DNA of 64,000 nt, from contig NZ_FLQX01000127.1 of the NCBI RefSeq assembly GCF_900089955.1, positions 62,001-126,000 on the forward strand, in the 5' to 3' direction. Shown here one piece after another: positions 8,126 through 61,584 of the stretch. Numbering within the stretch: the stretch's first letter is position 1; the number at the start of each line of letters is the position of its first letter. Source of the stretch: Candidatus Accumulibacter aalborgensis. Its GTDB lineage: Bacteria; Pseudomonadota; Gammaproteobacteria; Burkholderiales; Rhodocyclaceae. Below the pieces are notes generated by a model. That model searched no databases, was not told the origin of the DNA, and saw nothing but the letters and a program-made list of their open reading frames with translations. The translations under genes and the position numbers were made by a program.

Positions 8126-8825
8126 TCAAGCGCAAGTCGGAGCAAAAGCCGCTTCGGGATTGGCCGCCGGCCCCTTGCCGCTCCAGTACGGCGAGAGCTG
8201 GCGCAATTGGGCAATGATCGCCGGGACGGTTTCGATGACCCGATCGACCTCGGCTTCGGTGTTGTAGCGCGACAGCGAGAAGCGGATGGTGCCGTGCGCT
8301 GCGGTGTAGGGAATTCCCTTTGGCCGCGGCCATTGCGGCCATTTCTAGGACCGGAAGAAGCGTTCCGGTTTCATTGTTGGCCCACGTCATCGAGACGATG
8401 GCGACTCGGTCGTGCAGCAGCGAGCGATATTCATCGACGTCGACGTGGCCTTTCTTGTCCACCCTGAGCTTGTGCACGATGTAGCCTTCCTTTTCCAGCC
8501 ACTCGCAGAGCGTCAGGATCGCCGGGTGCTCGACGACACTGGTGATCACCGTGTTACGCTCGGGCTGCGCTTTCAGCGCCGAGAGAGTGGCCGTGGCGTC
8601 GGACTCAGTGCCGCAGGAAGTGAAAATGATCTCCGAATCGTGCTCGGCACCGAGCAGCGCCTGCACCTGAGCGCGCGCCTTCTTGAGCGCCTTGCCCACT
8701 TCGCTGCCGAAGGCATGAATCGACGACGCGTTGCCGAAGTGCTCGGTGAAGAAGGGCAGCATCGCCTCGACCACGGCCGGGTCGCAGCGTGTGGTGGCGT
8801 TGTTGTCCGGATAAATGGGTTCCAT
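8126..8825 (-). pseudogene. nifS: Cysteine desulfurase NifS, internal deletion plus frameshift
   Basis: NifS supplies sulfur for nitrogenase Fe-S clusters. The first ~165 residues are good NifS (MEPIYPDNNATTRCDP start, SCGTESDATA, EHPAILTLCEWLE, NNETGTLLPV). The C-terminal part is also good but in another frame (IPYTAAHGTIRFSLSRYNTE, ending PEAAFAPTCA). They are joined at about 8309-8320. The middle of the protein is absent, including the PLP-lysine region and the active-site Cys loop. The missing stretch is roughly 180 residues judged from normal NifS length (~400). At the junction the run AAAGGGAATTCCC has one G too many; removing it would restore one frame through both halves. Even then the catalytic Lys and Cys would be missing, so this copy cannot work. 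Confidence 0.85.
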
Positions 8826-8873
8826 GGCGGGGTCCTTCGCGTATGGGCGGTCAGTGAGCAGGGAAATTCATTC

Positions 8874-9649
8874 TCAGGCTTCGGCCGGCATGAGCGAAAC
8901 GGGCAGCACCTGCACTAGCTCACCGAGCGTCTCGATCATCTTCTGCTGGATTCCGCCTAGCGTCGCGACTTCCATCATGCAACCCGAACAAGCGCCCTTC
9001 AGCGTGACGTAGATCTTCTTGCCCTGCACGTCGGCCAGTTCGACGTCGCCGTGGTCGCGTTGCAGCATCGGCCGAACCGATTCGAGGACTTCCTCGATGC
9101 CTTCGTGGCAGGACGTGCAGCCACCCCCCGCTTTGGTGTAGAAAGTGACCTGCTCGACGGTGTTGAGGCTGTTGGCCTTGACCACGTCTTCAATCTTCAC
9201 GGCATCGACGGCGAAGCACTTGCAGATCAGCGCGCCTTCTTCGTGATCATCGGACCAGACCTCTCCGCGGTAATTGGCGATCTCCGCCTGCAACGCCTCA
9301 CGGCCCATCACCGAACAGTGCATCTTTTCCGGCGGCAGACCGTCGAGGTAGTCGGCAATGTTCTGGTTCGAGACTTCCAGTGCATGGTCTACGGTACCCC
9401 TTGATGATCTCGGTCAGTGTCGACGATGAGGCGATCGCCGAACCGCAACCGAAGGTCTGGAAATGCGCGTCTTCGATGATTTCGCTCTCGTCATTGACCT
9501 TGAGCATCAGCCGGAGAGCGTCGCCGCACTGGATCGAACCGACGTCGCCGATACCGTTGGCGTCCTTCAGGGGCCCCGAGTTGCGCGGGTTGAAGAAGTG
9601 TTCGCGAACCTTTGCAGTCCATGGCGTTGGCCAGTGACATGACCATCAT
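8874..9649 (-). pseudogene. nifU: Fe-S scaffold protein NifU, two frameshifts
   Basis: All three NifU domains can be read, but not in one frame. The N-terminal IscU-like part ([40 protein letters not shown]) is in the middle frame. The [2Fe-2S]-binding and C-terminal Nfu domains ([32 protein letters not shown]) run intact from about 9390 to 8874. Frameshift 1 lies near 9611-9618, right after MSLANAMD. Frameshift 2 lies in AAGGGGTACC near 9395-9401, where removing one G gives a continuous [12 protein letters not shown]. The predicted ATG overlaps the stop of the upstream DUF269 gene. The damage is only small indels, so sequencing error is a serious alternative. Confidence 0.8.
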
Positions 9650-10071
9650 GTTGTCGGTTCGAGGGCCACGGCGAGGATCTTGTCGACTTTATCCTTCATC
9701 TTCGACAGGCTGGCGAAGCCGAAGCGATGGACGTCGCGCAGCGTGCGATCGACGGCCACCAGCTTGCCGACGGTGATCACGGCGCGGCCGAAACCCTCGT
9801 GCGTCAGATGCACCAGCGGCACGGCAAGCAGCTTGCATTCCTTCTCGATGAGCACTGAAATGGCGTTGTAGAAGGCCTTGACGCGCGAGATTGTTTCGTC
9901 GTCCGGGTCGCCGATCAGCGGAATCCCTGCCTTGCGTTCGCGGGTCAGCACGTAGGGGTCGAGGACTTTTTCGACGCTCCAGTCACTGTAGGTGCCGTAG
10001 GTGTCGAGGGCGCGCATCTGGCGAGCCATTTCCCTGACGAAATCGGTTTCGAAGACTGGATCAACGGTCAT
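9646..10071 (-). CDS. NifX-associated nitrogen fixation protein (DUF269 family)
   Basis: 141 residues from ATG 10071, matching the small helical NifX-associated family found after nifN/nifX in diazotrophs (motifs FVREMARQMRALDTYG, KAGIPLIGDPDDE, VGKLVAVDRTLRDVHRFGF). The family is linked to FeMo-cofactor traffic, but the exact role is unsettled. The frame is intact, unlike its neighbours. It overlaps the upstream rseC-like gene by 11 bases, and its stop overlaps the nifU start, so it is translationally coupled. A nifX gene would normally lie next to it but is not seen here. Confidence 0.85.
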   Translation of the reverse strand: MTVDPVFETDFVREMARQMRALDTYGTYSDWSVEKVLDPYVLTRERKAGIPLIGDPDDETISRVKAFYNAISVLIEKECKLLAVPLVHLTHEGFGRAVITVGKLVAVDRTLRDVHRFGFASLSKMKDKVDKILAVALEPTT

Positions 10072-10558
10072 GGCGCAACTCCTGCGGAGAAAGGTTGAAA
10101 GGCTTGGCAATTCCGGCAATCGGCGAACGGTTGAGCGGGTGAATCAGTTGTGGGACCGGCAGCAGGCCGGGAAGCCTGGCGATCACCAAGCGGGCGGTGA
10201 AGAGCGCGCCGAGAAAGCCGCTCAGCGCGCCCAGCGCGGTGGCACCGTCGCTGCCATCGAACATGGCGCCGGACCAGGCGCCGAGGAGCATGGCGAAGGC
10301 CGGGAAAAGATAGCCGAGGAGCGCGCCAAGGGTCAGACGGCTTTCCGGCAGCACGATGCTGACCGCGTCTCCGGCCCTGATCTCGGCGCTCACCGGCAGC
10401 GTCAGCAAGGTCGTGGCGCGCCCGCTGGCCATCTTGCCGATGCCACAACTGCTGCCCTGGCCGCAGGAAGAGCAGCCGGTAGTGGCCATGGCGACGATGG
10501 CCATGTCGCCTTCGACGCGCTGGACGATGCCGCGATGTTCGATCGTTCTGGCGCTCAT
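10061..10558 (-). CDS. RseC/MucC-type membrane protein (SoxR-reducing family)
   Basis: 165 residues with a soluble N-terminal domain containing a four-cysteine cluster (CSSCGQGSSC), then two transmembrane segments (roughly residues 88-108 and 117-137). This is the plan of RseC/RsxC-associated SoxR-reducing proteins, which in some diazotrophs sit with nif or rnf genes and are thought to help membrane redox chemistry. The start ATG overlaps the nifN stop (ATGA), so it belongs to the nifE-nifS operon. No lesion is visible. Confidence 0.8.
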   Translation of the reverse strand: MSARTIEHRGIVQRVEGDMAIVAMATTGCSSCGQGSSCGIGKMASGRATTLLTLPVSAEIRAGDAVSIVLPESRLTLGALLGYLFPAFAMLLGAWSGAMFDGSDGATALGALSGFLGALFTARLVIARLPGLLPVPQLIHPLNRSPIAGIAKPFNLSPQELRHDR

Positions 10559-11139
10559 CCTTGCCAGCCCTCCTCTGCCATGCGCGCGAAGCTGGCGACA
10601 TCAAAGAGGGCCTGCCGTGTACCACGGTAGCCCACCTAGGTGCGGGCATGTGCGCCCACGTGGTCGTACTGCGGGAAGCCGGCGCGCAACAGCGGCAGAC
10701 CGAGTCGCCGTGCGCTCTCAACGGTGTGCGAACTGGCGATCACGAGCTGCGCGCCAGCCGCGCGCGCGTCTTTCTCCAGCTCTTCCAGATCGCCGACGAT
10801 GACCGTTGGGATCGGCAGATGGGCCAGGCTTTCCGCCTTCGCTGGGCTGACCGCGGTAACGATCTCGGCGCGTGGCGTACCGCCGATGGTCAGCGGCGAA
10901 AACTCCGCGTCGATCAGGTGGCCGTCGAGCGAATCACCGATGTCCGGAACGATGACCGCCGAGAGAGCGAAGGCTTCGATCCACTCTCTGATGGCCTCGA
11001 TATCGCCCGGTGTCAACATCGCCGAGGCGAGCACATTGATCTGCTGCCGGCGTTGTCCCGCGCTCCGGGTCTCGGGCACCAGCGTCTCGATCAGTGCTTC
11101 TATCGCCAGCGCTTTCTTCGAATGGACGATTTCAGCCAC
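10555..11139 (-). pseudogene. nifN: FeMo-cofactor scaffold subunit NifN, two internal deletions and a premature stop
   Basis: NifN pairs with NifE as the scaffold on which FeMo-cofactor is finished; normal length is about 450 residues. Here the start [12 protein letters not shown] is followed at once by IEALIETLVPE, so about 150 residues are missing. Later TIGGTP(R)AEI runs straight into VTAVSPAKAESLAHLP, a second loss of roughly 100 residues. Near the end, after GAHART, an in-frame TAG at 10636-10638 stands where NifN has Trp. The same frame then continues sensibly (VGYRGTRQALFDVASF) to TGA at 10555. A TGG to TAG change explains this. The product cannot be functional. Confidence 0.85.
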
Positions 11140-12212
11140 CTGTGCCTTCCCAGCTCACGCCGCCAGTACGCTGCCCGCTGGCGCGCGCCCATGGCGCCGG
11201 CTTGCGGACCGCTTCCCAGACCGGGCTTTCGATCGACAGCGCCAACTGGCGAGCCAGTTCGACCATTCCGTCGTAGCCGGCATAGCCGGCATAGCCGAAT
11301 TCTCGCTCCTGGTTGATATCGAGGAAGGGAATCGGCGCCTTGAGCGCCGTATAAAGGTTGCGCCCGCCGGCGATCAGGATATCGGCCCGGTATTCGCGGT
11401 AGATCGACAGCAGTACCGTCGGGCTACCGTCGTCGATCATGCGGGCGCTCTCGCCCATCAGTTCGCGGATGCGCGCCTTGTCTTCCTCAGTGGACTTCTT
11501 GGTGCCGGTGGCGACGACCGTCATCCCCAGATCCTGCAGCGCGGAAACGATCGACCACGACTTGACCCCGCCGGTGTAGAGCAGCACCCGCTTGCCCTGC
11601 AGGCGTTGCCGCCAGGGGGCGAGCGCGGCCTGCGAGCGGGCTTCCTCGCGGGCAATCAGCGCTTCGGTGCGGGCCGTCAGATCCGCGTCGCTGATCAGCC
11701 TGGCAAAAATCGCGCAGTGCGTTGGACATGCCCTGCACGCCGTAGAACCCGGCGGCATCGACCGGCACGACCGGCGTTCCCCAGCGTTCGGCGGCGGCCT
11801 TGCAGACCGCTTCGACATCGTCGCCGATCAGCGCCGGAACGCAGGTGTTGTAGACAAAGACCGCCGCCGGCGAATAACTGTCGACCGCCTGTTTGATCGC
11901 GTGGAGCAAGCGCTTTTCGCCGCGGCCCATGACCACATCGGTCTCCGACAGATCCGTGGTCATGCCGATGCGGTACAGGCTGACCGCCGACGAACGCGTG
12001 CCGCGGTTGTCCCACGATGAGCCTGCGCAGGCAATCGGGCCATGCACGATGTGAGCGACGTCGGCGATGGGCAACAAAGTGATCTGCGCGCCGTCGAAGG
12101 AACAGCCGCCCGCCGTGGCGCCTGGCTTTGGTCGCGCGCAGGCCGACTTGTCCTTCTCGTTGTGGCTACAGGCCGGCTCGTCGAGCAGCGCCTGGATCTC
12201 GCTGGCTTTCAT
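11132..12212 (-). pseudogene. nifE: FeMo-cofactor scaffold subunit NifE, internal deletion plus frameshift
   Basis: Starts at ATG 12212 ([18 protein letters not shown]). The first ~160 residues are good NifE, including [14 protein letters not shown] and [17 protein letters not shown]. At [10 protein letters not shown] the sequence jumps to [11 protein letters not shown], which in NifE lies after a second FYG motif over 100 residues later. TTCTACGGC at 11739-11747 is the junction. A few codons on, a run of five T (11705-11709 on the plus strand as A) shifts the frame. The C-terminal third ([15 protein letters not shown] to the 3' end, with [13 protein letters not shown]) is intact in the new frame. 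The end overlaps the nifN start. Confidence 0.85.
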
Positions 12213-12241
12213 GCAGTTCTCCAGATGTCTGGATAACCATA

Positions 12242-12257
12242 AGCAAGATAAATGCCA
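12242..12257 (-). promoter_or_regulatory. Sigma-54 (-24/-12) promoter of nifE
   Basis: On the minus strand this reads TGGCAT-N5-TTGCT, a near-perfect RpoN site, 30 bases upstream of the nifE ATG. Confidence 0.8.
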
Positions 12258-12299
12258 ACTACAGCGCGCTGTATTCACTCACGTTTTTTCATCCCGGCT

Positions 12300-12315
12300 G
12301 GTCGCAAAAGCGACA
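12300..12315 (-). promoter_or_regulatory. Possible NifA upstream activator site for nifE
   Basis: On the plus strand GGT-N10-ACA, one base away from the NifA consensus TGT-N10-ACA. Its core CGCAAAAGCG resembles the nifB site. It lies 43 bases upstream of the -24 element, closer than usual. Confidence 0.45.
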
Positions 12316-12335
12316 ATGTCGACATCGCCAGGCGG

Positions 12336-13235
12336 CTAGATCCGATAGACCAGCACGCGCTGGCACCAGCGCTCCTTGTAGCCACGGTCGGCACGACCGA
12401 ACGAATAGCGCAGGGGCTTGCCAAGCGCGCGCGCGTCTTGCCAGGCGGCTTGCGTATTGATGAAGCTCAAGACGCTGCCGGGGCTGAAATCACGAGTTTG
12501 CGGATCGAACCCGCCGTTGATGTATTCGAGCGAAATCCACTTCGGCGCTTCGACCCGATAGAGGATCTGGATGGCCATCGGCTGCTCGTCGCGCAGCAGA
12601 ACGGCGCCGGTCATGAACTCACGCAGCAGCGCAAAGACTTCGCCGAGATGCGCCTTGTCCCTGGGGGAAAAGCCCCACCGGCGCTCGAACAGGTCGGCAT
12701 AGATGGCCGCCTGCTGCAGCGGCGAAAAATCGAGCATCGGGCGCACGCAGCCCCCCGCTTCCTCGAGCAGACGCAGCTCGCGCCGCTGGTTGTAACGAAA
12801 CTTCTTCGAGTACTCCTCGGGCGTGCGTGCCAGCGCCAGACCTTCCGGCTGTGCCTTCAGGCGGCTGCTGACCTGCCCGGCATTGAGGTCGGAGACGTAA
12901 GACATGCGCTGCCGCACCGGAACACAGGCCTGTGCGGCGATCGGCAAGATAACCTCGGCATTGCCCAGATCGAACGCGCCGCGCAGGCGGCGTTCTTTCA
13001 GCACCTCCTTGGACAGCGCGAGATGGCTCCCCCAGCAGGGAACCGCGGCCAGCAGTTCGCCGCCCGCGAACCAGCCGAGGTAACGCACAGGCATCCGCGC
13101 CAGACCAGCCAGCCGCTCGACGATGACCGGGTGAGTGGCGACGCTGCCACCGAAATGCTGCCAGGCTTGCGCATAAGCGGCGGCATCGATTTGCGTCCAG
13201 CCACGCTCTCGCCAGGCGCGCAGCAGATTCAACAT
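12336..13235 (-). CDS. Mig-14-like acyl/aminoacyl-transferase-fold protein
   Basis: 299 residues from ATG 13235 (MLNLLRAWRERGW). The C-terminal GNAT/FemAB-like half carries motifs I associate with Mig-14 (KKFRYNQRRELRLLEEAGG, AIQILYRVEAPKWIS, SPGSVLSFINTQAAW, LRYSFGRADRGYKERWC). Mig-14 in Salmonella is an inner-membrane-associated factor for resistance to antimicrobial peptides; the chemistry is not firmly known. The gene is upstream of and in line with nifE, but nifE has its own sigma-54 promoter, so the two are probably unrelated. Two glycosyltransferase genes are divergent from it, in keeping with a cell-envelope role. Confidence 0.75.
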   Translation of the reverse strand: MLNLLRAWRERGWTQIDAAAYAQAWQHFGGSVATHPVIVERLAGLARMPVRYLGWFAGGELLAAVPCWGSHLALSKEVLKERRLRGAFDLGNAEVILPIAAQACVPVRQRMSYVSDLNAGQVSSRLKAQPEGLALARTPEEYSKKFRYNQRRELRLLEEAGGCVRPMLDFSPLQQAAIYADLFERRWGFSPRDKAHLGEVFALLREFMTGAVLLRDEQPMAIQILYRVEAPKWISLEYINGGFDPQTRDFSPGSVLSFINTQAAWQDARALGKPLRYSFGRADRGYKERWCQRVLVYRI

Positions 13236-31374: not shown

Positions 31375-32190
31375 CTAGGCTGCGACGAGATCCTTGATCC
31401 ACCGTCGTTGCACTTCGCGGCGGCGATCGTCGGTCAGTCTTTCGATGAGCTTCTCGCGAACCGCGGTGAAGGGCAACGTTCCACAGGGGAGAACCTCATC
31501 GCAGCGAATGATGTGCAGGCCAATCGGTGACTCGATAACAGCGCTGATTTCGCTTTCACTCAGCAGGAAAGCGACCTCTTCGAGTTCCGGGTAAAGCTGC
31601 TTGCGCCTCACGACGCCGAGTTGACCACCTTGCGTCGCCGTCGGGCACTGCGAATGGCGGAGCGCAGCTTCGCCGAATTCCTTGGCCTTCTTCAGCGTCG
31701 TGCGTAGCGCTTCGAGTTTTGCTGCTGCTTCAATTCTTTCACCAGCAGTGTCGAAGGTGATCAGGATGTGGCGCAGGCGGCGAGTTTCGGGACGGTGGAA
31801 CGCTTTCGGGTGCAGGTGGTAGTAGATTTCGGCGTCCACCGCGCTGACCCGGTCGACCCGCGCGGCGACTTTGTCGAGCAGCGCTTCGACCGAGAGATCG
31901 CGTTCGACGGCAGCGGCGAGTTGTTCCTCGTCGAGGCCGACACGTTCGAGTTCGTCGGCGAGTTCACGCTCGCTCTGGTAGCGCTGGCGGATTTCAAAGA
32001 GTCGCGTACTGAGCGTATCGGGCGGCACGACGACGCTCGCCGCTTCGCAACTGCTGAGAATACGCTGCTCGATGGCGTTCTGCCGCGTAGCGACCTCGGC
32101 GACACGCAGATGTTCTGCTTCGGAGAGTGCTTCAGGGGGCTTCTGGAAGAGTTCCCAGGAGAGTTTCAACTCAAGGTAGCCGCGCTGCAT
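31375..32190 (-). CDS. nifM: NifM, peptidyl-prolyl isomerase for the nitrogenase Fe protein
   Basis: 271 residues. The N-terminal helical part (WELFQKPPEALSEAE) and C-terminal parvulin-type PPIase domain (RLRHILITFDTAGERIEAA, QLGVVRRKQLYPELEEVAF, PIGLHIIRCDEV) match NifM, which is needed to mature NifH. It is the last gene of the nifV-cysE-nifW-nifZ-nifM unit and overlaps nifZ by 20 bases. The frame is intact. It is convergent with the GGDEF-EAL gene, with ~230 bases of plain spacer between. Confidence 0.9.
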   Translation of the reverse strand: MQRGYLELKLSWELFQKPPEALSEAEHLRVAEVATRQNAIEQRILSSCEAASVVVPPDTLSTRLFEIRQRYQSERELADELERVGLDEEQLAAAVERDLSVEALLDKVAARVDRVSAVDAEIYYHLHPKAFHRPETRRLRHILITFDTAGERIEAAAKLEALRTTLKKAKEFGEAALRHSQCPTATQGGQLGVVRRKQLYPELEEVAFLLSESEISAVIESPIGLHIIRCDEVLPCGTLPFTAVREKLIERLTDDRRREVQRRWIKDLVAA

Positions 32191-32665
32191 CGTCCTCTAC
32201 CTCCGCCGCGGCCAGTGCGTCTTCCGGGATCTGCAGCACGCGCCCCGGCAGGACGTCGAAGTGGATGTGATAGGCGACGCCGCCCGGTGCGTCGCGGATC
32301 ACCTTGATCACCTTGCCGATGGCGCCTCGGGTGACCAGCATTTCACCGCCGACCGAGAGGTTCTTGGCGGCGGCGATGGTCTCGCGGAATTCAAAGCGCG
32401 ACGGCATCCACGGTTCGTCGGCACCGATCAATTCCTCTTCGCGACAGCCGACGATTCGACCTTCGTCGAAAAAGTTCACCGAGTAGATGATCTGGTCCTG
32501 CAGAAACGTACCGACGTCGACCACGTAGCCAATGCTGCCGCGGCGGACGAGCGGTGCGCCGGAGTCCAGGCCCGGATACGTGCCGTCGTTCCTGACATTG
32601 CGCGTCAGGCGTACCGCTTCGCCGAAATCCCAACGCTGCCAGCGTTGCCAGTGTGCGTCGCTCAT
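32171..32665 (-). CDS. nifZ: NifZ, nitrogenase P-cluster maturation factor
   Basis: 164 residues with two NifZ repeats: PLVRRGSIGYVVDVGTFL and EMLVTRGAIGKVIKVIRDAP. NifZ acts in forming the second P-cluster of the MoFe protein. The start overlaps the nifW stop (ATGA), and its end overlaps nifM, so translation is coupled. No lesion is visible. Length is slightly longer than some NifZ proteins, as is common in betaproteobacteria. Confidence 0.9.
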   Translation of the reverse strand: MSDAHWQRWQRWDFGEAVRLTRNVRNDGTYPGLDSGAPLVRRGSIGYVVDVGTFLQDQIIYSVNFFDEGRIVGCREEELIGADEPWMPSRFEFRETIAAAKNLSVGGEMLVTRGAIGKVIKVIRDAPGGVAYHIHFDVLPGRVLQIPEDALAAAEVEDDAARLP

Positions 32666-33003
32666 TTATGAAACACCTTGTCCAGCGGAACGAAGGACGT
32701 CGAGCCACCACCCGGCTTCTGAACATGGTGGAAGACAGCGAAGACTTTCTCGGTCAGCGCGTCGGAAGCGACGAAATCCTGGTAAGCGCGTGCCAGCCAA
32801 AGGCGGTAAATGGCGTGCTGCGCAGCTTCCTCCTGCGGCAGCTCGGGGGCCTGCCTGGCCAGGTAGTCGTGAAAGCGCTGCAGGATGTGCAGACGATTCA
32901 CCTGGACGACGTCTGTGTCGTAGGGAACGGCAAAGAAATCGAGAAAATCCTCGGCCGAAGCGAGCTCTTCGAGGGCTTCGGCAAGGGTGCGCGTCTCGTT
33001 CAT
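32662..33003 (-). CDS. nifW: NifW, nitrogenase-stabilising protein
   Basis: 113 residues from ATG 33003. Motifs fit NifW: LEELASAEDFLDFFAVPYD and RFHDYLARQAPELP. NifW helps protect or mature the MoFe protein under O2. A longer frame reaches 33225, but its first part belongs to a different, broken gene, so I start at 33003. Confidence 0.9.
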   Translation of the reverse strand: MNETRTLAEALEELASAEDFLDFFAVPYDTDVVQVNRLHILQRFHDYLARQAPELPQEEAAQHAIYRLWLARAYQDFVASDALTEKVFAVFHHVQKPGGGSTSFVPLDKVFHK

Positions 33004-33013
33004 GGCAGTCTCC

Positions 33014-33225
33014 TCAGACCAGGGCAAGGGAAAGGCCGAACTCTTCATCGGCCTGCTGGAACGTACCGTCAGGTTCTCCGGCGCCAGCAGGTGGGCGCGC
33101 AACAGCGCCGTTTCGGCAGTTTCCTGGCCGTATTCGCGCGCCGCCTGGTCGAGCAGAAGCGAGGCTCTCGCCGGCAGAGCTTCTTCGAAGCAGAGTTTGC
33201 AGTCGGAAAAGTCGAGTAGATCCAT
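33014..33225 (-). pseudogene. Remnant of a small TPR-like gene between cysE and nifW
   Basis: The first ~55 residues (ATG 33225, MDLLDFSDCKLCFEEALPA, ALLRAHLLAPENLTV) look like the start of a tetratricopeptide protein of the kind found in nif clusters. After ENLTV the frame becomes nonsense. In another frame a short natural-looking C-terminus (FQQADEEFGLSLALV) ends at TGA 33014-33016. I read this as a large internal deletion plus frame change. The gene lies 7 bases after cysE. The assignment is tentative, since only short ends remain. Confidence 0.55.
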
Positions 33226-33232
33226 GGCCGCC

Positions 33233-34021
33233 TCAGTGAAAAGATTCGTTCTTGCAGCACAGGTCTCCGGCGCTGCAGATGCGGCATTCGCCGCTGCGGT
33301 CGGCCGCTGGTGGTTCGTCGCGCAGCGTTGAAAGTTCGCTTTCGAGCAGTTCGATGCGCGCTATCAGGCAGGCGATCGACTTGGCCACCGGGTCGGGCAA
33401 CAGGTTGTGGTCGAGACTGATGCCGTTCTCGGGGCGCTCACCGGCGCCTCCGCCAGCCACACGCGTCGCGACGATACGGCCGGGAACACCGACGACGGTA
33501 CGGTCGGCGGGAACATCCTTGACGACTACCGAATTGGCGCCGACGCGGACGCGTTCGCCAATGCTGATCGGGCCGAGAATCTTGGCGCCGGCACCGACGA
33601 CGACGCCGTCGGCCAGCGTCGGGTGGCGCCGGCCCTTGCTCCATGAGGTGCCGCCGAGTGTGACGCCGTGGTACAGCGTGACATCGTTGCCGACTTCGGC
33701 GGTTTCGCCGATCACCACGCCCGCGCCGTGGTCGATGAAGAAGCGACGGCCGATCGTCGCACCGGGGTGGATATCGACGTTGGTCAAAGTCCGCCCGATG
33801 AATGACAGAAAGCGCGCCAAGAAGCGCCAGCCGCAGAGCCACAGGCGATGCGCCAGACGATGGCCGAACAGGGCATGTACGCCGGGGTAGGTGGTGAGGA
33901 CTTCCAGCGTCGAGCGGGCCGCGGGGTCGCGCTCGAAGACGCAAGCCAGGTCTTCCCTGAGAGTGGCCCACAGGCCGGGCGCTGGACTGACGCCGGCGGC
34001 GAGGGTGAGGGTTTCAGACAT
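33233..34021 (-). CDS. cysE: Serine O-acetyltransferase CysE, nif-cluster copy
   Basis: 262 residues. The left-handed beta-helix hexapeptide repeats and motifs of CysE are clear ([40 protein letters not shown]). It makes O-acetylserine for cysteine synthesis; the nif-linked copy is thought to raise cysteine supply for Fe-S clusters. It overlaps nifV by 8 bases. The C-terminus carries a [11 protein letters not shown] cysteine-rich stretch, which is unusual for housekeeping CysE but seen in some nif copies. The frame is intact. Confidence 0.92.
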
Positions 34022-35153
34022 GGGGCAAGCTCCTCAACGAGGCGAGCAGCGCGCGCAGATCGGGCGTCTCCGGCGGCTGCTTGTGCCTGGCGACGAAATT
34101 GCGAATACGCGGCAGCAGCGCCTGCGCTTCGCGGTCGTCGACCGTGGCGCCGAAACCGGCATAGACCATTTGCACCGCCCGCGAGCCGGAATGCTTGCCG
34201 AGCACGATGCGGTGCGACTGGCCGACTTCCTGTGGGTCGAAACCCTGGTAGTTGTCGGGATGCTTGAGCAGTCCGTCGACATGGATGCCGGCCTCGTGCG
34301 TGAAAGCGCCAGCGCCGACGACGCTTTTCTGCCACGGCACGGCGCGGCCCGAGGCGCTGGCGACCTGCTGCGAAACTGCCGGGAAGCCTTTCAGATCGAC
34401 GCCGGTTTCGATGCCGTGCAGCTTCGTCAGGCCGAGGACGACTTCTTCCAGCGGCGCATTGCCGGCGCGTTCGCCGAGGCCGTTGACCGTCGTATTGACA
34501 TGCGTCGCGCCGGCCCTGCACGCGGCCAGCGTGTTGGCGGTAGCCAGTCCGAGGTCGTCATGCGCGTGCATTTCAATTTCCAGCCCGCTGCTGCGGCGCA
34601 GGGTGCTGATGCGCTCGAAAGTGCCGAAAGGCTCCAGGACGCCGAGCGTGTCGGCAAAACGCAGGCGACGGGCGCCGGCGCGTTCGGCGGTCTCGGCCAG
34701 CGCGCAGAGAAAGCTCACGTCGGCGCGCGAGGCGTCCTCGCAACCCAGGCCTACTTCGAGCCCGAGGCTCAGCGCGGCGCCGATATAGAGCGGGAGCTCG
34801 CGCAGCAGCCAGCGGCGATCGCGGCCGAGCTTGTAGGCCAGATGCTGGTCGGAGGCGGGTACCGAAATGTCGATCAGGTGTACCCCGAGGTCGGCGCAGG
34901 CGGCAATGTCGGTTAGGTGCATGCGGCTCCAGACCATCAGGCGTGGCGGCAGTTTGAGATCGGCCACAGCGCGCACCGACTCGCGCTCTTCGTCGCCCAT
35001 CGCCGGAATTCCCACTTCGAGTTCCGGCACACCGATGGCCGCCAAGTGGCGGGCAATGTCGAGCTTTTCGGCGAGCGAGAACGCCACCCCGGCCGACTGC
35101 TCGCCGTCGCGCAGGGTGGTGTCGTTGATGGTGACGAAAAGCGGGTCGGTCAT
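34014..35153 (-). CDS. nifV: Homocitrate synthase NifV
   Basis: 379 residues. NifV condenses acetyl-CoA and 2-oxoglutarate to homocitrate, the organic ligand of FeMo-cofactor. Key residues are visible: [10 protein letters not shown] near the N-terminus, [21 protein letters not shown] for metal binding, and [16 protein letters not shown]. The start at ATG 35153 has AAGGAG upstream. It is the first gene of the nifV-cysE-nifW-nifZ-nifM operon and has its own sigma-54 promoter. The longer open frame to 35660 is not used. Confidence 0.94.
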
Positions 35154-35176
35154 GGCAATCTCCTTGACTCCCTTGC

Positions 35177-35192
35177 AGCAAGGATGATGCCA
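35177..35192 (-). promoter_or_regulatory. Sigma-54 (-24/-12) promoter of nifV
   Basis: On the minus strand TGGCAT-N5-TTGCT, 23 bases upstream of the nifV ATG. Confidence 0.8.
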
Positions 35193-35252
35193 GCGTACAA
35201 GCCTTTGAAACAATGCAATTGTTGATTCCCTGTCAGGGCTGATGTGAGGACG

Positions 35253-35268
35253 ATGTCGAGAATGCGAC
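35253..35268 (-). promoter_or_regulatory. NifA upstream activator site for nifV
   Basis: TGT-CGAGAATGCG-ACA, an exact TGT-N10-ACA match, 60 bases upstream of the -24 element. Confidence 0.7.
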
Positions 35269-35366
35269 AATCGTACCCGGAGCGATCGGCTATCCTTGTA
35301 CGCTTGGCAGATCCAGGACAGCGCGCATGACTTCCCGTCAACTTGAATGACCAGCAAGGAGTACCC

Positions 35367-36677
35367 ATGAGTACAACGACGAGTAGCACGACAGAGCGCC
35401 CGAACCCGCGCGACCTGTTGCAACAAATGTTTGCTGCCGCGATTGAAGCGGCGCAGCCCGCGCATTGCATCCCGCCGCATCTGCCTGAAATACAACCAGT
35501 GCCCAGTGGCCGCCTGATCGTTATCGGTGCTGGCAAGGCCTCGGCGGCGATGGCCCGCGCCGTTGAGGATAACTGGCCGGGTCCGCTCTGCGGGCTGGTG
35601 GTCACGCGTTACGGCTATGGCGTGCCATGCACACGAATCGAAATCGTCGAGGCCGCCCATCCCGTTCCCGATGCGGCAGGGCTGGCCGCTGCCGGACGCA
35701 TCTGCGCTCTGGTCAGCGATCTGACTCCGGACGACACCGTGTTGTGCCTGATTTCCGGCGGAGGTTCTTCGCTGCTCGTCTCGCCACTCGACGGCATTAC
35801 TCTCGAAGACAAGCAGGCGGTCAGTCGCGCGCTGCTCAAATCAGGGGCCAGCATCAGCGAGATGAACTGCGTCCGCCGTCATCTCTCGGCGATCAAGGGG
35901 GGCCGCCTGGCCGCAGCGTGTCATCCGGCGAAAGTAATCACGCTCCTGATTTCCGACGTGCCGGGGGATAACCCCAGCGACATCGCCTCAGGTCCGACGG
36001 TGGGCGATGCGACCACTTGCGACGATGCGCTGGCCATCGTGCGGCGCTACGCAATCGAACTGCCGGCGACGGTTCGAGAGGTGCTCGATAGCGGCCGTGG
36101 CGAATCGATCAAGCCCGATGATGCACGCCTGGCGAGAACAGAGACGCACCTGATCGCCACGCCACAGATGGCGCTCGAAGCCGCGGCGCAAGTCGCCGCC
36201 GACGCCGGGGTCACTCCCCATATCCTCAGCGACAGCATCGAGGGCGAGGCGCGCGAGGTGGGCAAGGTGATCGCCGGGATCGCGCTGCACGTTGCTGGCC
36301 GTGGCCAACCCTTCGCCGCACCCTGCGTCCTTCTTTCCGGCGGCGAGACGACGGTGACGGTGCGCGGCAACGGGCGTGGCGGGCGCAACGTCGAGTTCCT
36401 GCTCGCCCTCGGCGTCGCGCTGGACGGGAGTCGCGGCATCCACGCCATCGCCGGCGACACCGATGGCGTGGACGGCCAGGAGGAGATCGCTGGCGCCTGG
36501 CTCGCGCCGGACAGCCTGGCCCGCGCCTGGGACAAGGGCATCAAGCCGCTGGTCAGCCTGGACAACAACGACGGCCACGGTTTCTTCCAGGCCCTGGGCG
36601 ACTCGGTCATCACCGGACCGACCCTGACCAACGTCAACGACTTCCGGGCGGTACTGATCACCGACGAGGCCACCTGA
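35367..36677 (+). CDS. Glycerate 2-kinase (MOFRL family; GckA/TtuD type)
   Basis: 436 residues. The family converts D-glycerate to 2-phosphoglycerate or, in tartrate pathways, acts on hydroxypyruvate. Motifs: [19 protein letters not shown] (~residues 50-68), [25 protein letters not shown] and the C-terminal MOFRL domain with [19 protein letters not shown] and [12 protein letters not shown] 35367 has AAGGAG upstream. It is divergent from nifV, and its promoter region is shared with the NifA site, but it is not a nif gene by function. Confidence 0.9.
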
Positions 36678-37473: not shown

Positions 37474-38442
37474 CTAGACCGAATACGGCCGATGCAGCCA
37501 GCCGCGGACGACATCAATGTCGCGTTCGGGCAGGTAGGCGAAGCCGGCCAGCGAGTCTTCGACGACTGCCTCGGCGACCCAGTGCGGGACGGCCTTGGTG
37601 GCGAGCATGTGGAAGTACCAGGCCATCGGGTAGCCGGCCTGGCGGTCGAAGTGAGCCAGGACGGCCTGTAGTTTCAGGCCGCTGGTGCCGGCGGTGGCTT
37701 CGCAGTCCGGTGCGCCGCCACCTTGCGTGGCGATCGGCTGGGCGCGGAAGATCGGCTGGTGGTAGCGGTCGAGATGTTCGCGGGTGGCAATCACCCAGTG
37801 GTTGCAGTATTCGCTGGTGTGGCCGGCGCTGCTGCCGGTCCAGTCTGCCAGCATGCGGTGGATCGGCGAGGGTTCAGGTTTTTGCCTCAGCATACGGTGC
37901 AGGAAAGCGCCGATGTGCTGAACGCGGCGGAAGTTGTAGAAGGGCAGACCAACCGGCAGTGGCTTGTCGGCACCGCCGCGCGGGTCGAGCAGTTCGTCCA
38001 GCGTGTTGGCGTGGTTGGCAAAAAGCTGATGGACGCGCATTTCCTGCAGATCTTCGATTTCGAGCTGCAGGAAGGCGTCGGTGCCTTCGCCGGCGGCCGC
38101 GACCAGGTAATGCGTCTGGCCAACGAGTCGGGTGGCGTAGAGCTGGCGATCGGCGAAGTCGTCGATCAGCAGGGCAAAATCGCCGTTGTGTTGATCGAGC
38201 GCGTTTTCGACCCACTCTTCGAGATTGTCTGACAAGCGATGGCCGTTGACGGCGATAACTCCGCCGAGGCGATACCAGCCGCCGCGGCTCAGCGCGTGGC
38301 GGAATTTCCAGTCGGGCAGGGCCACGCTCAGGGCCTTGACGAGGGCGCCGGGGCCGCTGCTGACCGGCACCTTGGTACAGCTTTCGACGATCGCGGGCGC
38401 GAGCGATTTGCAGTATTCTGACCAGCCCTGGGTTTCGTTCAT
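37474..38442 (-). CDS. Unknown protein at the end of the nifHDK operon
   Basis: 322 residues, cytoplasmic by composition, no membrane helices or metal motif I recognise. Its start overlaps the end of the NafY-like gene by four bases (ATGA), so it is clearly an operon member. Recognisable features are few: an N-terminal SEYCKSLAPAIVESCTKVP segment and a middle part rich in His and Trp. It is not truncated as far as I can tell. I do not recognise the family. A role in nitrogenase maturation or electron supply is only a guess from context. The adjacent RAYT/REP locus sits just downstream. Confidence 0.75.
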   Translation of the reverse strand: MNETQGWSEYCKSLAPAIVESCTKVPVSSGPGALVKALSVALPDWKFRHALSRGGWYRLGGVIAVNGHRLSDNLEEWVENALDQHNGDFALLIDDFADRQLYATRLVGQTHYLVAAAGEGTDAFLQLEIEDLQEMRVHQLFANHANTLDELLDPRGGADKPLPVGLPFYNFRRVQHIGAFLHRMLRQKPEPSPIHRMLADWTGSSAGHTSEYCNHWVIATREHLDRYHQPIFRAQPIATQGGGAPDCEATAGTSGLKLQAVLAHFDRQAGYPMAWYFHMLATKAVPHWVAEAVVEDSLAGFAYLPERDIDVVRGWLHRPYSV

Positions 38443-39164
38443 TGGGGATTCGCCGCGAAGCGTGCCAGCGACGTCGCGGGAACCCCCATGATCCGGGCCA
38501 GCCAGGGCGGCGGGTTGGCGAGACGGCGCTGCAGTTCGACCAGCACTTCGCGGGCCGGGCCGCCGGCCGCTTTCTTGATCGGATAAACGCCGGCGCGGAC
38601 CACCTTGGCGGCCGCCGGGCCACCGATCGATTGCACATAGACGATCTGGCAGTCGCTGATCAGCGCCGAGCGGGCGGCGTTTCTGTCTTCTGCGGCATCG
38701 GCCTCGACGGTGGTGCGCACGCCGATCAGCTTGACCGCCTGCTGAGCCACCTGATAGATCAGGAAGCGCTCGCAGGAACCGAAATGGCCATCGAGGTTTT
38801 CGCCGCGGTTGGCGGCGATGGCGACGCGGATGGAGCCCGGCATTTCGCCCTTGGTGTAGGCGTCCACTGCCGGAAAATCGCGGTGGTCGACGCCCTCACC
38901 CCAGAGCAGACGGACGGCTTCCTTCAGTGCCTCGGCCTCGACGCCGACATGGCAACCCTGTTCGGCAAAGTCACCGGCGAGGATGACGCGCAGATCTTCG
39001 ACGGTGAGCGTGCCGAGCTTGGCTTCGGTCAGCGGCGCTTGCAGGCTTTCCAGTAGCGCGTCGACCAGCGCGCGGACGTCGAGGGAATTGAGGGCGCGGG
39101 CCGCCAGCGCGATGCGCAGCGCGGCTTCGCGGGAGGCTATTGGGGGTATTGGGGGTTCGGACAT
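38439..39164 (-). CDS. NafY/NifY-like FeMo-cofactor-binding protein
   Basis: 241 residues with two parts. The N-terminal ~95 residues are helical, like the SAM-like domain of NafY. The C-terminal part is a NifX/NifB-C-type dinitrogenase cofactor-binding domain (VAIANRGENLDGHFGSCERF, with the cofactor-linked His/Cys region, then SIGGPAAAKVVRAGVYP). Such proteins hold apo-dinitrogenase or newly made FeMo-cofactor. It follows the ferredoxin gene, and its stop overlaps the unknown gene after it. The exact name (nifY or nafY) cannot be fixed. Confidence 0.85.
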   Translation of the reverse strand: MSEPPIPPIASREAALRIALAARALNSLDVRALVDALLESLQAPLTEAKLGTLTVEDLRVILAGDFAEQGCHVGVEAEALKEAVRLLWGEGVDHRDFPAVDAYTKGEMPGSIRVAIAANRGENLDGHFGSCERFLIYQVAQQAVKLIGVRTTVEADAAEDRNAARSALISDCQIVYVQSIGGPAAAKVVRAGVYPIKKAAGGPAREVLVELQRRLANPPPWLARIMGVPATSLARFAANPQ

Positions 39165-39788: not shown

Positions 39789-41357
39789 TTAGCGAACCAG
39801 GTCGAAGTTGTAGTCGGTGGTCGCCATGCCGATCGTTTCCCGGTCCAGTTGCTCGAGGACCGCGTTGGTCAGTTGCGTGACGATGGACATCATTCCTTCG
39901 TAGCCCAGCGTCGTCTGACGATGCAGGTGATGACGGTCGAAGATCGGGAAGCCGAGGCGGATCAGAGGTACTTCGAACTCTTCACCCTTGTAGCGGGTGT
40001 CGCGCTGAATGTACTTGCCGTAGGAGTTGCCGATCAGGAAGTCGGGCTTGTCGGTGAAGCACAGGCTGCGCATGTGCCACAGGTCGCAGCCTGTATAGAC
40101 CTTGCCATTGACCCCGAACGGGCTCGTTTCGAGCAGCTTCTCGACCACCTTGCCCCAGCGTTTGTGGGCGTTGTGGCACACGATGTGCGTCGGCTCGGCA
40201 CCGACTTCGAGCAGGATCTTGACCATGCCCAGGACGAAGTCCGGGTCGCCGTAGAGGGCGAACTTCTTGCCGTGCAGCCAGGCGTGGCTGTCGGCAATCA
40301 GATCCATGCAGCGGCCGCGTTCCTTGGCCAGCGATTCCGGAATCTCCTTGCCGGTGACTTCGGAGACTTTCATCAGGAACTCGTCGGTCCAGTCGACGCC
40401 CATCGGGATGTTCAGCTTGGGAATCTCCTGGTTCCAGGTGTTCTCGATGAACTTCTTCGACTTCTCCAGTTGCGTTGGCTGCAGCAGGAGCGTCGTCAGT
40501 GCGTTGGGCGCGTCCTTGATCTCGTCCTGCGTCGTGCCGCCGGCGTACATGCGGAATTCACCGTCGGTCGGCGTATCGAACACTTCGCTCGGGTCGCACA
40601 GGAAGGTGTAAGCGACGTCCATTTCATCGAGCATGCGCTTGATGACGCGGTAGTTGCCGAGGTAGGTCTCGAAGCCGGGGATGATATTGATCTTGCCGTT
40701 CGCGCCGACCTTCTTGTCGGCCATCGTGTTCAGCGTGAAGGAACGGATGATGCCTTCGAGCATGTTGTCCCAGCCGGTGGTATGCGAACCGACAAAGGAC
40801 GGCGTGTGCGCAAAAGGTACAGGGAATTCCTGCGGGATGTGGCCTTCCTTCTTGGTGTTGTTGATGAACGCATTGAGGTCGTCACCAATGACTTCCGCCA
40901 TGCAGGTGGTCGACACGGCGATCATCTCCGGCTTGTAGATCGCCTTGGCATTGGCCAGTCCGTCGTACATGTTCTTCTGGCCGCCGAACACCGCGGCGTC
41001 TTCGGTCATCGAGTCCGAAACGCACGAGCACGGTTCTCTGAAATGACGATTGAAGTAGGTGCGGAAGTAAGCGACACAGCCTTGCGAGCCATGCACGTAG
41101 GGCAGGGTCTTGTGGAAGCCCGAGGCGCAGAGCACGGCGCCGAGCGGCTGACAGGCCTTGGCGGGGTCCACCGTCAGCGCCTGGCGCTTGAAGTTGAGTT
41201 CCTGATACTCCAGCGTGGTGGTCCACAAGAAGGTTTCGCGGACCTTGTCGGCGCTGTGGCCTTCCTCGAAGAGCTCACGTTTGTCGGTCAGCGACTTCCT
41301 GTAGTCGTCGTCACCGAACAGCGGGTAGCACGGCTTGATCTTTTCTGCAGTTTGCAT
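39789..41357 (-). CDS. nifK: Nitrogenase MoFe protein beta subunit
   Basis: 522 residues, full length. P-cluster-region motifs are in place: CQPLGAVLCASGF, HGSQGCVAYFRTYFNRHF and STTCMAEVIGDDLNAF. The C-terminal DYNFDLVR tail is typical. With NifD it forms the alpha2beta2 dinitrogenase. No frameshift or stop is present. The gene follows nifD by 69 bases containing a stem-loop. Confidence 0.97.
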   Translation of the reverse strand: MQTAEKIKPCYPLFGDDDYRKSLTDKRELFEEGHSADKVRETFLWTTTLEYQELNFKRQALTVDPAKACQPLGAVLCASGFHKTLPYVHGSQGCVAYFRTYFNRHFREPCSCVSDSMTEDAAVFGGQKNMYDGLANAKAIYKPEMIAVSTTCMAEVIGDDLNAFINNTKKEGHIPQEFPVPFAHTPSFVGSHTTGWDNMLEGIIRSFTLNTMADKKVGANGKINIIPGFETYLGNYRVIKRMLDEMDVAYTFLCDPSEVFDTPTDGEFRMYAGGTTQDEIKDAPNALTTLLLQPTQLEKSKKFIENTWNQEIPKLNIPMGVDWTDEFLMKVSEVTGKEIPESLAKERGRCMDLIADSHAWLHGKKFALYGDPDFVLGMVKILLEVGAEPTHIVCHNAHKRWGKVVEKLLETSPFGVNGKVYTGCDLWHMRSLCFTDKPDFLIGNSYGKYIQRDTRYKGEEFEVPLIRLGFPIFDRHHLHRQTTLGYEGMMSIVTQLTNAVLEQLDRETIGMATTDYNFDLVR

Positions 41358-41370
41358 TGCTTTTCTCCTT

Positions 41371-41399
41371 GCCGGTGCCGCCCATCTGCGGATACCGGC
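41371..41399 (-). other. Imperfect stem-loop between nifD and nifK
   Basis: GCCGGTGCCGC pairs with GCGGATACCGGC around a six-base loop. Similar spacer hairpins follow nifH and nifK. Confidence 0.45.
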
Positions 41400-41426
41400 G
41401 CAAGGTTTACGATTTTTTGCGATTTC

Positions 41427-42899
41427 TCAGGCGGCTTCTTTCACTGCTTCGGCAGTGACCTTCTTCCAGGGTGGCAGGAGGTTGTTCCAGACCGGATTGG
41501 ACAGGGCGATGTCCATGTCGCGGGCAAAGATGCCGAAGCCGTCATAGCCGTGGTACGGGCCGGAGTAGTCCCAGGAGTGCATCTGGCGAAACGGAATGCC
41601 CATCTTCTGGAAAATGTACTTCTCCTTGATTCCTGAGCCGACCATGTCCGGCTTGATCCGCTTGACGAATTCCTCGAGCTCGAAGCCGTTGGCGTCGTCG
41701 TAGATCAGCGTCGCATTGCCCATCTCCTTGATCGTGCGATCGTAGTCGTCGTTGTGGCCGAATTCGTAGCCGGTGCCGACGACTTCCATCCCCAGGTCTT
41801 CGTAGGCGCCGATAATGTGACGCGGCCGCAGCCCGCCGACGTAGAGCATGACCTTCTTGCCCTGCAGCCGCGGCTTGAAGCGCGCGATGACCGCGTCCAC
41901 CATCGGCTGATAGCGGGCGATGACCGCCTCGCACTTCTCCTTGACCGAATCGTCGAAAAAGGCAGCGATGCGGCGCATCGATTCGATGATCTTGGTCAGG
42001 CCGAAGAAGTTGTATTCCATGTAGGGAATGCCGTACTTCTCTTCCATGTGGCGGCTGATGTAGTTCATCGAGCGATAGCAGTGCAGCAGATTGAGCTTCA
42101 CTTTCGGCGTGTTCATCATTTCCGCCAGCGTGCCGTCGCCGGACCACTGAGCGACCACGCGCAACGCCATCTCCTCAAGGAGGATACGGGTGGCCCAGGC
42201 GTCGCCGCCGATGTTGTAGTCGCCGATGATCGCCACGTCGTAAGGCGTCGTCTCCATGGTGACGCCGTCGCGTTTGTCGAGCACCCAGTCGCGGATCGTG
42301 TCGTTGGCGATGTGGTGGCCGAGTGACTGGGAGACGCCGCGGAAGCCTTCGCAGCGCACCGGGACGACCGGCTTGCCGATCGCCGCCGAAGTCTTCTTGG
42401 CGATCGCTTCGATGTCGTCACCGATCAGCCCGATCGGGCACTCGGACTGGACGCTGATGCCTTTGTTGAGCGGAAAGAGCTGGTCGATTTCCTCGATCAG
42501 TTTGCTCAGCTTCTTGTCGCCGCCGAAGACGATGTCCTTCTCCTGGAAGTCGGAGGTGAAGTTCATCGTCGCGAAGGTGTCCACCCCGGTGGTGCCGACG
42601 TAGTAGTTGCGCCGACCGGCGCGGGAAAACTGACCGCAGCCAATCGGGCCGTGCGAGATGTGGATCATGTCCTTGATCGGACCCCAGACCACACCCTTGG
42701 AACCGGCGTAGGCACAGCCGCGAACGGTCATCACGCCGGGCAACGTCTTGCGGTTCGAGGTGATGCACTTCTTGGATTGCTCGATACTTTGATCATTGAC
42801 CGTCAGATGCTTGGCGCGGTCCTTCTTGGCTTTTTCGGGATAAACCTCGAGCACCTCTGCGATGAGGGCTTCGGTTTCCTCGCGAGACAGGGTCGTCAT
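41427..42899 (-). CDS. nifD: Nitrogenase MoFe protein alpha subunit
   Basis: 490 residues, full length. Visible functional residues: P-cluster Cys in [11 protein letters not shown] and GPIGCGQFS, the FeMo-cofactor Cys in [12 protein letters not shown], and the FeMo-cofactor His in [30 protein letters not shown] is also conserved. The frame is intact, and no substitution stands out. It is the second gene of the nifHDK operon. Confidence 0.97.
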
Positions 42900-42911
42900 G
42901 CTTTCCTCCTG

Positions 42912-42938
42912 ACGCCGCCACTCATCTGTGGTCGGCGT
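42912..42938 (-). other. Imperfect stem-loop between nifH and nifD
   Basis: ACGCCGCCAC pairs with GTGGTCGGCGT (one bulged base). Hairpins at this place are known to stabilise nifH mRNA in some diazotrophs. Confidence 0.4.
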
Positions 42939-42992
42939 AGTGGTTGAAAATGGCGGGTTCGCTGGCCAGCAATCCGCCGGGTCTGGTAAGGC

Positions 42993-43997
<1,005 letters not shown>

Positions 43998-44896: not shown

Positions 44897-45184
44897 GGGG
44901 AGGGGGGCATCGGACGTTGGCTACGGGGTGGCGACCCAAGGAGATGGTCCTGTGATTGCTGCGAGGGTTGCTGCGCAGCCATGGCAGAGGGTGACAAAGA
45001 TGTTCTCGCAGCTCGCGTATGTCGCCTTGGCGGGACCTGGGCTCAACGGGGACTATCGGCCAGCCAGGGGAAGAATTCCGTGGAAGCGGTCATTGAGGTG
45101 CTCCGGGTGTATGCTGGCGACCGAAATTGCGTCGTGCTGCGCAATAATGAGAGCTATCCCTTCCGAACAATTGTGGAGTCAGCC
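44897..45184. other. Spacer between draT and hicB with a short repeat
   Basis: A ~45-base stretch (around 45068-45115, GAAGAATTCCGT..CGGTCATTGAGG) is shared with the leader of the third attI-like unit at 49339-49384. No gene is recognised. Confidence 0.5.
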
Positions 45185-45394
45185 ATGAAGGTCTATTCAG
45201 CGGTAATTGAGCGGTGTGCCCAGACTGGCCTGTTCGTTGGTTATGTTCCGGGTTTTCCGGGCGCTCACTCGCAAGGCGAAACGCTCGATGAAGTCAACCG
45301 CAACCTGCAGGAAGTCATTGCAATGCTCCTGGAAGATGGCGAACCAATACTGGAGTCAGAGTTTGTTGGAGTTCAAAACGTCGCCGTGGCTTGA
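45185..45394 (+). CDS. hicB: HicB-family antitoxin
   Basis: 69 residues from ATG 45185 with GGAG upstream. The partial RNase H-like HicB fold is clear (MKVYSAVIERCAQTGLFVGY, then GAHSQGETLDEVNRNLQEVI). It lacks the C-terminal DNA-binding domain, as short HicB proteins do. HicB neutralises the HicA mRNA interferase. The gene order HicB then HicA is the reverse of the classic order but common. It sits between draT and the draT duplicate. Confidence 0.85.
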   Translation: MKVYSAVIERCAQTGLFVGYVPGFPGAHSQGETLDEVNRNLQEVIAMLLEDGEPILESEFVGVQNVAVA

Positions 45395-45396
45395 TT

Positions 45397-45620
45397 ATGG
45401 GCAATGTTCCGGTTCTCAAACCTGATCAAGTCACAGCAATTCTTGTTAGACTCGGCTTCACGGAAGTCCGCCAACGCGGTTCCCATAAACAATTCCGCGA
45501 TGCCACCGGTCGCTGTACCAGGTGCCGTTTCATCAAGGTCGAGATATCTCCCCAAGCTTGCTCCGTCAAATCGCCAAGGACGTCGGCCTCCCGCTTGATG
45601 AGTTGATCAAGCACAGATAG
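45397..45620 (+). pseudogene. hicA: HicA-family mRNA interferase, frameshifted
   Basis: ATG 45397 follows hicB directly. The first ~45 residues are good HicA (VLKPDQVTAILVRLGFTEV, then RQRGSHKQF with the catalytic His). Near 45518-45524 (TGTACCAGGTGCC) one base seems to be missing. In the next frame HicA continues normally (VPFHQGRDISPSLLRQIAKD to a TAG at 45618-45620). As read, the toxin is truncated. Loss of toxin while keeping the antitoxin is a usual decay path; a sequencing error is the alternative. Confidence 0.75.
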
Positions 45621-45634
45621 GCTACCTCCCTACA

Positions 45635-46084: not shown

Positions 46085-46311
46085 GCGTCGGGAGTCGACT
46101 CTTCGGCAGCCACCTGAGTAGACGGCGAGGGCGATTGCTGCGGGTGTCTGTTGCTCGGTCTTTGCTTGACGGTCTTGGGGCGCTGGCAGTTCGCCCATGT
46201 CCGCTTTGCGGAAGCAGAGCTAGACGAGTACTATCGGCCAGAAGCAGCCAGTGGCGACAGCGCCACAAAGTTGCCGTTCCCGCGTTCTCGGTGTATGCTG
46301 ATGCCCTGTAT

Positions 46312-46339
46312 TTGACTTGCCGCTTTTCACCTTTATATA
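46312..46339 (+). promoter_or_regulatory. Sigma-70-type promoter upstream of the first attI-like site
   Basis: TTGACT, a 16-base spacer, TATATA. It points towards the cassette-like genes, in the position of an integron Pc promoter. Confidence 0.55.
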
Positions 46340-46412
46340 GCGCTGTATAGCCAACACAAGCAAGTTCTGAAAAGCCTTCAGTAAAACTAGAGAGGCTTTT
46401 GGCGCGATCAAT

Positions 46413-46478: not shown

Positions 46479-46494
46479 AACAGGGAGAATTTTG

Positions 46495-47635: not shown

Positions 47636-47642
47636 GGTTCCG

Positions 47643-61582: not shown

Positions 61583-61584
61583 GA

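Follow-up and report, generated by a model that had tools for sequence, protein, structure and literature searches.

The nifE-to-nifS operon and its lesions

We examined a 64 kb stretch of contig C127 of Candidatus Accumulibacter aalborgensis (hereafter the window), which carries the remains of a nitrogen fixation (nif) operon running from nifE to nifS. The assembly is a 4.71 Mb metagenome-assembled genome (MAG; G000 among our genomes) in 181 contigs, with a listed completeness of 100% and contamination of 0.2%. The operon region (8126-12317, minus strand) was aligned piecewise to the nif operons of all 10 relatives in our comparison panel, with ACC003 (= G172) and G168 as the main synteny references. 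In these relatives the order is nifE-nifN-nifX-rseC-DUF269-(Rop-like)-fdxB-nifU-nifS; in G168 it reads nifE, nifN, nifX, an RseC-like gene, DUF269, a Rop-like gene and a 4Fe-4S ferredoxin gene, with nifU and nifS further on. Full-length matches were found for nifE in 9 of the 10 relatives and for nifN, nifU and nifS in 10 each, completeness being uneven. The pieces shared with ACC003 and G168 are mostly 77–87% identical in nucleotide sequence. The genus seems to have the nifE-nifS cluster in two divergent versions, one in our genome, ACC003 and G168, the other (mostly 69–79% nucleotide identity to the window) in the remaining genomes.

Eight deletion junctions (J1 to J8), +1 and −2 frameshifts and a TGG-to-TAG stop interrupt the operon in the window. 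All features of the operon lie on the minus strand. The nifE remnant (11132-12212) consists of an N-terminal piece (12212-11715) and a C-terminal piece (11707-11132), matching positions 2-170 and 290-459 of the 459-position hidden Markov model (HMM); it carries a 348-bp in-frame deletion at 11743 (J1), a +1 frameshift within a T-run at 11705-11709 and an in-frame tandem duplication of 9 bp. What is left of nifN (10593-11139; HMM pieces 146-230 and 336-429 of 433) has lost 411 bp at 11108 (J2) and 324 bp at 10865 (J3), both in frame, and its 3′ end at 10592, where a deletion of 514–538 bp spans nifN and nifX (J4). The one TAG inside it, at 10636-10638, replaces a tryptophan that is invariant in 40 references. 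Further down the operon, nifU (8874-9612; HMM pieces 4-79, 80-185 and 224-290 of 290) is shifted in frame by −2 near 9395 and has lost 135–213 bp of its linker at 9091, depending on the relative (J7), and nifS (8126-8825; HMM pieces 1-173 and 336-379 of 379) has a 509-bp deletion at 8320 (J8) that leaves its second part out of frame. The original prediction, made from the sequence alone, had all four of these genes broken, and alignment to the 10 relatives bore this out at the predicted positions.

Of the smaller genes between them, next to nothing is left of nifX and the Rop-like gene, and most of fdxB is missing. A nifX tail (10559-10592) was recognized by the BLAST junction at 10592 to the 3′ end of the relatives' nifX. 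A 44-bp fdxB remnant (9613-9656), lying between two deletions, is 95% identical to ACC003 and G168 and maps inside the 4Fe-4S gene of G168. The same prediction had rseC and DUF269 intact. The former is so (RseC/MucC-like gene, 10061-10558; Pfam PF04246), and it stands at the corresponding point of the operon in G168; the latter (9646-10072; Pfam PF03270) is only nearly so, approximately its last ten codons having been replaced at deletion junction 9657, which leaves a C-terminus unlike that of G168. A full-length relative of the RseC/MucC-like gene is present in 32 of the fetched loci.

The nifE promoter (12226-12300, minus strand), predicted to be a good sigma-54 promoter, keeps its −24/−12 element (TGGCAT-N5-TTGC), while its upstream NifA site differs by one base, reading TGT-N10-ACC instead of TGT-N10-ACA; these are the motif definitions that we take to be the accepted ones. 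Of 90 nifE loci, 2 were truncated, 6 lacked the −24/−12 pattern and 6 were duplicates; in the upstream 260 bp of the remaining 76, TGT-N10-ACA is present in 75, and in 73 it lies 40–100 bp from the −24 element.

Breakpoints were concordant across relatives. Junctions J1, J3, J7 and J8 could be placed in all 10 of them, J4 in 9, and J2 in 7. J5, a deletion of 256–438 bp across DUF269 and fdxB, was placed in 9 of 10, with no placement in ACC003. J6, in the stretch of 0.54–12 kb from fdxB to nifU, was placed in 10 of 10, although the relatives themselves differ greatly there: fdxB and nifU are separated by approximately 11–12 kb in ACC003 and G168 and by 0.5–3.6 kb in the eight others. Junction repeats were measured in the relatives rather than in the parent sequence. 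Mean exact repeats were 9.5 bp at J1, 7.7 at J2, 5.5 at J3 and 8.3 at J7, and 2.1 at J4, 1.9 at J5, 2.6 at J6 and 2.7 at J8, the latter four near the null mean (20,000 random pairs, mean 2.16 bp, P = 0.004 for ≥7 bp). Approximately half of all junctions, those on the second contig described below included, sit on short direct repeats, and such a mixture of repeat-rich and repeat-poor junctions suits deletion in vivo. Of nine within-gene deletions that are clean by our own judgement, eight have lengths divisible by three; for one of these the length is 168 or 169 bp, according to which relative is used. We considered selection for reading frame as the cause and set it aside: 71% of 8-bp repeats in the nif cluster genes are in phase anyway, so that deletions in multiples of three fit any repeat- or overlap-driven process.

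A second damaged contig and an inferred inversion

Immediately upstream of nifE, and contiguous with it, ACC003 and G168 carry nifA, a PAS/HATPase gene and a set of rnf genes. Pfam identified rnfC, D, G, E and H; the genes that we call rnfA and rnfB presumably deserve those names from their look. The position of the PAS/HATPase gene would fit NifL. In our genome this half of the cluster lies on another contig (C104:1708-7510), and it is damaged as well. Relative to ACC003 it shows deletions of 64, 168, 1091, 180, 311, 429, 432 and 279 bp, some of which differ when measured against G168, and the reading frame is altered in nifA, rnfH and the PAS/HATPase gene. The longest exact repeats at these junctions are 2–10 bp against ACC003 and 1–10 bp against G168. 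Taken over both contigs, the smallest lesions measure 1 and 2 bp, others 19 and 23 bp, and the largest 1.1 kb, in addition to the stop, the NifA-site change and the tandem duplication. By the criterion of disabling lesions against whole orthologues, nifE, nifN, nifU, nifS and the damaged genes on C104 would count as pseudogenes. That the damage goes on in C104 weakens the idea of a single bad contig segment.

Synteny with ACC003 places an inferred inversion breakpoint at 12317-12336 of the window, where the upstream region of nifE is joined to mig-14. The reciprocal joint, of rnfH to the neighbour of mig-14, lies at C104 7510-7621: C104 from 7621 onward and the window's mig-14 match adjacent places on ACC003 contig C2 (210985 and 211064), and rnfH and nifE, which stand at the joints here, adjoin each other on ACC003 contig C4. 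Most simply, the two joints would be the ends of a reciprocal inversion. No long shared repeat was found in the stretches of approximately 250 bp compared at the joints, and neither C127 nor C104 contains any N bases, which makes repeat-driven misassembly unlikely; misjoining of this kind at the inversion is thus weakened as an explanation. A further separation concerns nifS and nifM, which are neighbours in ACC003 and stand apart here.

Intact nif genes, missing copies and selection

Outside this cluster the nif genes of the window are whole, as had been predicted for nifHDK, nifB, nifV, nifM/W/Z and nifQ. The genes nifK, nifD and nifH (39789-43967, minus strand) scored over the NCBIfam cut-offs. 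A nifM-like peptidyl-prolyl isomerase gene, nifZ, nifW, a cysE-like gene and nifV (31375-35660, minus strand) are intact, with near-complete domains in the nifM-like gene, nifZ, nifW and nifV; this block adjoins nifS in ACC003 and G168 and lies 23 kb away from it here. Near-complete Pfam domains were likewise found in nifQ and nifB (58522-63312, minus strand), which are intact and have a flavodoxin/beta-lactamase-fold gene between them.

The concentration of the damage was measured against the fetched stretches of ACC003, an own-deletion junction being defined by a query gap of ≤15 and a reference gap of ≥60. From nifA to nifS, 13 of 15 junctions in 9,231 aligned bases were own-deletions, compared to 2 of 13 in 46,791 aligned bases outside, so that 13 of the 15 own-deletions in total fall inside the cluster (binomial p = 5e-9 if independent); the converse, a deletion in the reference, occurred once outside and never inside. 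One of the two outside own-deletions lies in the nifHDKY operon (38439-38451), where a small 88-aa gene after nifY is missing. Approximately 287 bp are absent relative to ACC003, so that nifY nearly abuts the next gene; 14 of 18 other nifY loci, that of ACC003 included, have the small gene behind nifY. Beside nifY, a 322-aa open reading frame (ORF; 37474-38442) is conserved in ACC003 and has no Pfam or NCBIfam match. Coding is sparse at 44900-52111; one ORF there (48270-49145) is of the Mrr endonuclease type, and another (50780-52111) weakly matches the HipA family (YjjJ).

Second copies had been offered as one way out of the puzzle. HMM searches of the whole MAG found no intact nifE, nifN or nifU elsewhere, only pieces; the searches also picked up nifD and nifK, which are paralogues, one NifU-like match on contig C1 and two weak matches of the NifU model on C94. 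With the nifS model, two complete NifS-like matches appeared below the cut-off, adjacent to each other on C1 and next to the NifU-like match; judged by position, these C1 genes are probably of the Isc type. For nifA no match exceeded the cut-off in the MAG, the remaining matches beginning only after one third of the model, as general sigma-54 activators do, and the best NifA-like pieces by tblastn were those on C104. The assembly therefore holds no intact second set. Among 28 genus genomes, our own included, 12 were over the cut-off for nifD, 13 for nifE and 13 for nifA. The other 11 nifD-positive genomes all have nifA and 10 of them have nifE, the exception being G150 (88% complete, 820 contigs); ours is nifD-positive with neither nifA nor nifE over the cut-off. 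Of the six genes in a published diazotroph criterion (nifHDK and nifENB, as given in the accessible text of PMC3464626), nifH, nifD, nifK and nifB are whole here, and nifE and nifN are not.

In a two-ratio codon model (969 codons, 7 sequences), omega was 0.077 for the branch of the window, compared to 0.051 for the rest of the tree (2dlnL = 5.1). When the six intact relatives were set as foreground one after another, omega ranged from 0.024 to 0.093, the highest value, for ACC003, exceeding that of the window. Gene by gene (window/background), nifN (0.119/0.124) and nifU (0.035/0.031) were at background, and nifE (0.085/0.044) and nifS (0.079/0.040) at approximately twice background; in nifDK, intact and used as a control, omega was 0.055/0.063. 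Counts of changes at invariant residues, matched for isolation, were high in nifN (a level reached by 4 of 60 references, with the stop counted) and nifS (4 of 48), not clearly so in nifE (18 of 60) and nifU (13 of 57), and average in nifD (6 of 24), nifK (11 of 28) and nifH (11 of 19). So little relaxation of constraint means that the breakage is either recent or an artefact. On the scale of the codon model it is recent, and recency alone does not separate the real from the artefactual.

Proposed gene decay and its alternatives

On balance we lean, by a modest measure, towards lesions that are real and recent in a Ca. Accumulibacter lineage that is losing nitrogen fixation. What favours real recent decay is that lesion sizes are mixed, that joints without repeats occur, that a second contig is affected, that the inversion is reciprocal and that the promoter has changed; of the three options first put forward (second copies, loss of fixation, faulty assembly) loss is the best supported, given the nifA and rnf damage on the second contig, the NifA-site change and the published nif loss in the genus. 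An ancestral nifA/PAS-HATPase/rnf/nifE-N-X-…-U-S cluster, contiguous as in ACC003 and G168, would have been split by the inversion and would have gathered approximately 16 deletions, some half of them between short direct repeats, probably through slippage or illegitimate recombination; small frameshifts, the stop and the NifA-site change would have been added to these. That nifHDK, nifB, nifQ, nifV and others are intact might reflect too little time, or deletions that favour this cluster. If real, the decay is ordinary gene decay. Provided that the assembly is correct and that there is no unbinned copy, as we infer, the cell would be unable to fix nitrogen, with neither NifA nor a NifEN scaffold; Isc-type proteins could at most substitute for NifU and NifS.

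Several observations weigh against this reading. Simple loss of fixation should let all nif genes decay alike, and the damage is very uneven, with 13 counted deletions in the cluster and one in the other nif loci compared. The surviving pieces are almost without relaxed selection, the unbroken DUF269 and rseC genes show a higher omega (0.236/0.109) than the broken ones, rnfG and most of rnfA appear whole on C104, and an assembler could have introduced the short repeats as false overlaps. The uneven damage and the weak relaxation keep two alternatives alive. An intact nifA-nifS cluster that was thinly covered, for example by being carried by part of the population, may have been pieced together across gaps by the assembler or gap closer on short false overlaps. 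Damage restricted to one ancestral cluster, repeats of 5–12 bp at approximately half of the joints, well-conserved pieces and 8 of 9 clean deletions in multiples of three all agree with such an artefact, which we nevertheless hold to be unlikely: four of the eight window junctions average only 1.9–2.7 bp of repeat, there are also indels of 1, 2, 19 and 23 bp, besides a stop and an altered promoter, the segments span two N-free contigs with reciprocal inversion joints, and the aligned sequence beyond the cluster is nearly free of such gaps. The suspicion of a faulty assembly is thus weakened rather than removed. Alternatively, an intact copy, probably of a different version, may have gone unbinned, so that the copy in the window decays freely, single-copy nifHDK, nifB and others stay selected and nitrogen fixation goes on. 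MAGs often miss accessory islands, the genus seems to have two divergent cluster versions, and redundancy would account for decay in the cluster alone while the omega of nifDK stays at 0.055. Against a listed completeness of 100%, HMM searches without another nifE, nifN, nifU or nifA, and only the paired NifS-like matches below cut-off beside a NifU-like match on C1, we find it quite unlikely.

Two further accounts appear less plausible. A single chromoanagenesis-like repair burst may have hit the cluster alone, leaving the approximately 16 deletions, half or so on short repeats, and inversion breakpoints within and possibly at the end of it, too fast for base-level decay to follow; nifA, rnf and nifEN/US would have been destroyed and nifHDK left whole. 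We judge this improbable. Lastly, NifDK might assemble its own FeMo-co, with other activators and Isc-type proteins in place of NifA and NifU/S. Intact nifHDK and the Isc-like genes on C1 would permit this, and Roseiflexus, according to the accessible text of PMC11573651, makes FeMo-co without NifEN. However, the available part of PMC3464626 describes nitrogenases that lack NifN or NifEN as separate lineages with ties to thermophiles, and a nitrogenase of the Roseiflexus type would have nifEN ancestrally absent, whereas here nifEN persists as debris, nifA is broken too and nifE accompanies nifD in 10 of the 11 other nifD-positive genus genomes. We regard this account as very improbable indeed.

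By nifH or nifHDK alone, this organism would be labelled a nitrogen fixer, with which its regulator and scaffold genes disagree; claims of fixation that rest on nifHDK should be withheld for it. With one cluster shredded and the remaining genes whole, the unevenness of the decay lends itself to tests against redundancy and faulty assembly. In the literature searched (Accumulibacter nif, nif pseudogenes, short direct repeats; most subscription journals lay outside the scope) we found no earlier description of this case, and the accessible text of PMC8407102 only mentions NifU expression.

Compared with the nifA-rnf-nifENX-US cluster of ACC003 and G168, the gene order is shared, whereas there the genes are whole, contiguous and adjoining nifM/Z/W/V. 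In reductive pseudogenisation, bacterial operons acquire frameshifts, stops and deletions in genes that are no longer needed. All three are found here too, although the damage sits in one cluster, with many mid-size deletions at short repeats and little substitutional decay. The spheroid body of Rhopalodia gibba, a reductive example, is an endosymbiont described as nitrogen fixing in the part of PMC2246100 available. Closest is the loss of nif within the same genus: the accessible portions of two surveys report complete nif operons in 36 of 136 Ca. Accumulibacter MAGs, with recurrent losses suggested (PMC12766714), and complete pathways in half of the genomes, with some losses (PMC11131965). 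As far as those portions show, these surveys give presence or absence, whereas the present locus, if its damage is real, would be a broken intermediate in that loss, legible junction by junction.

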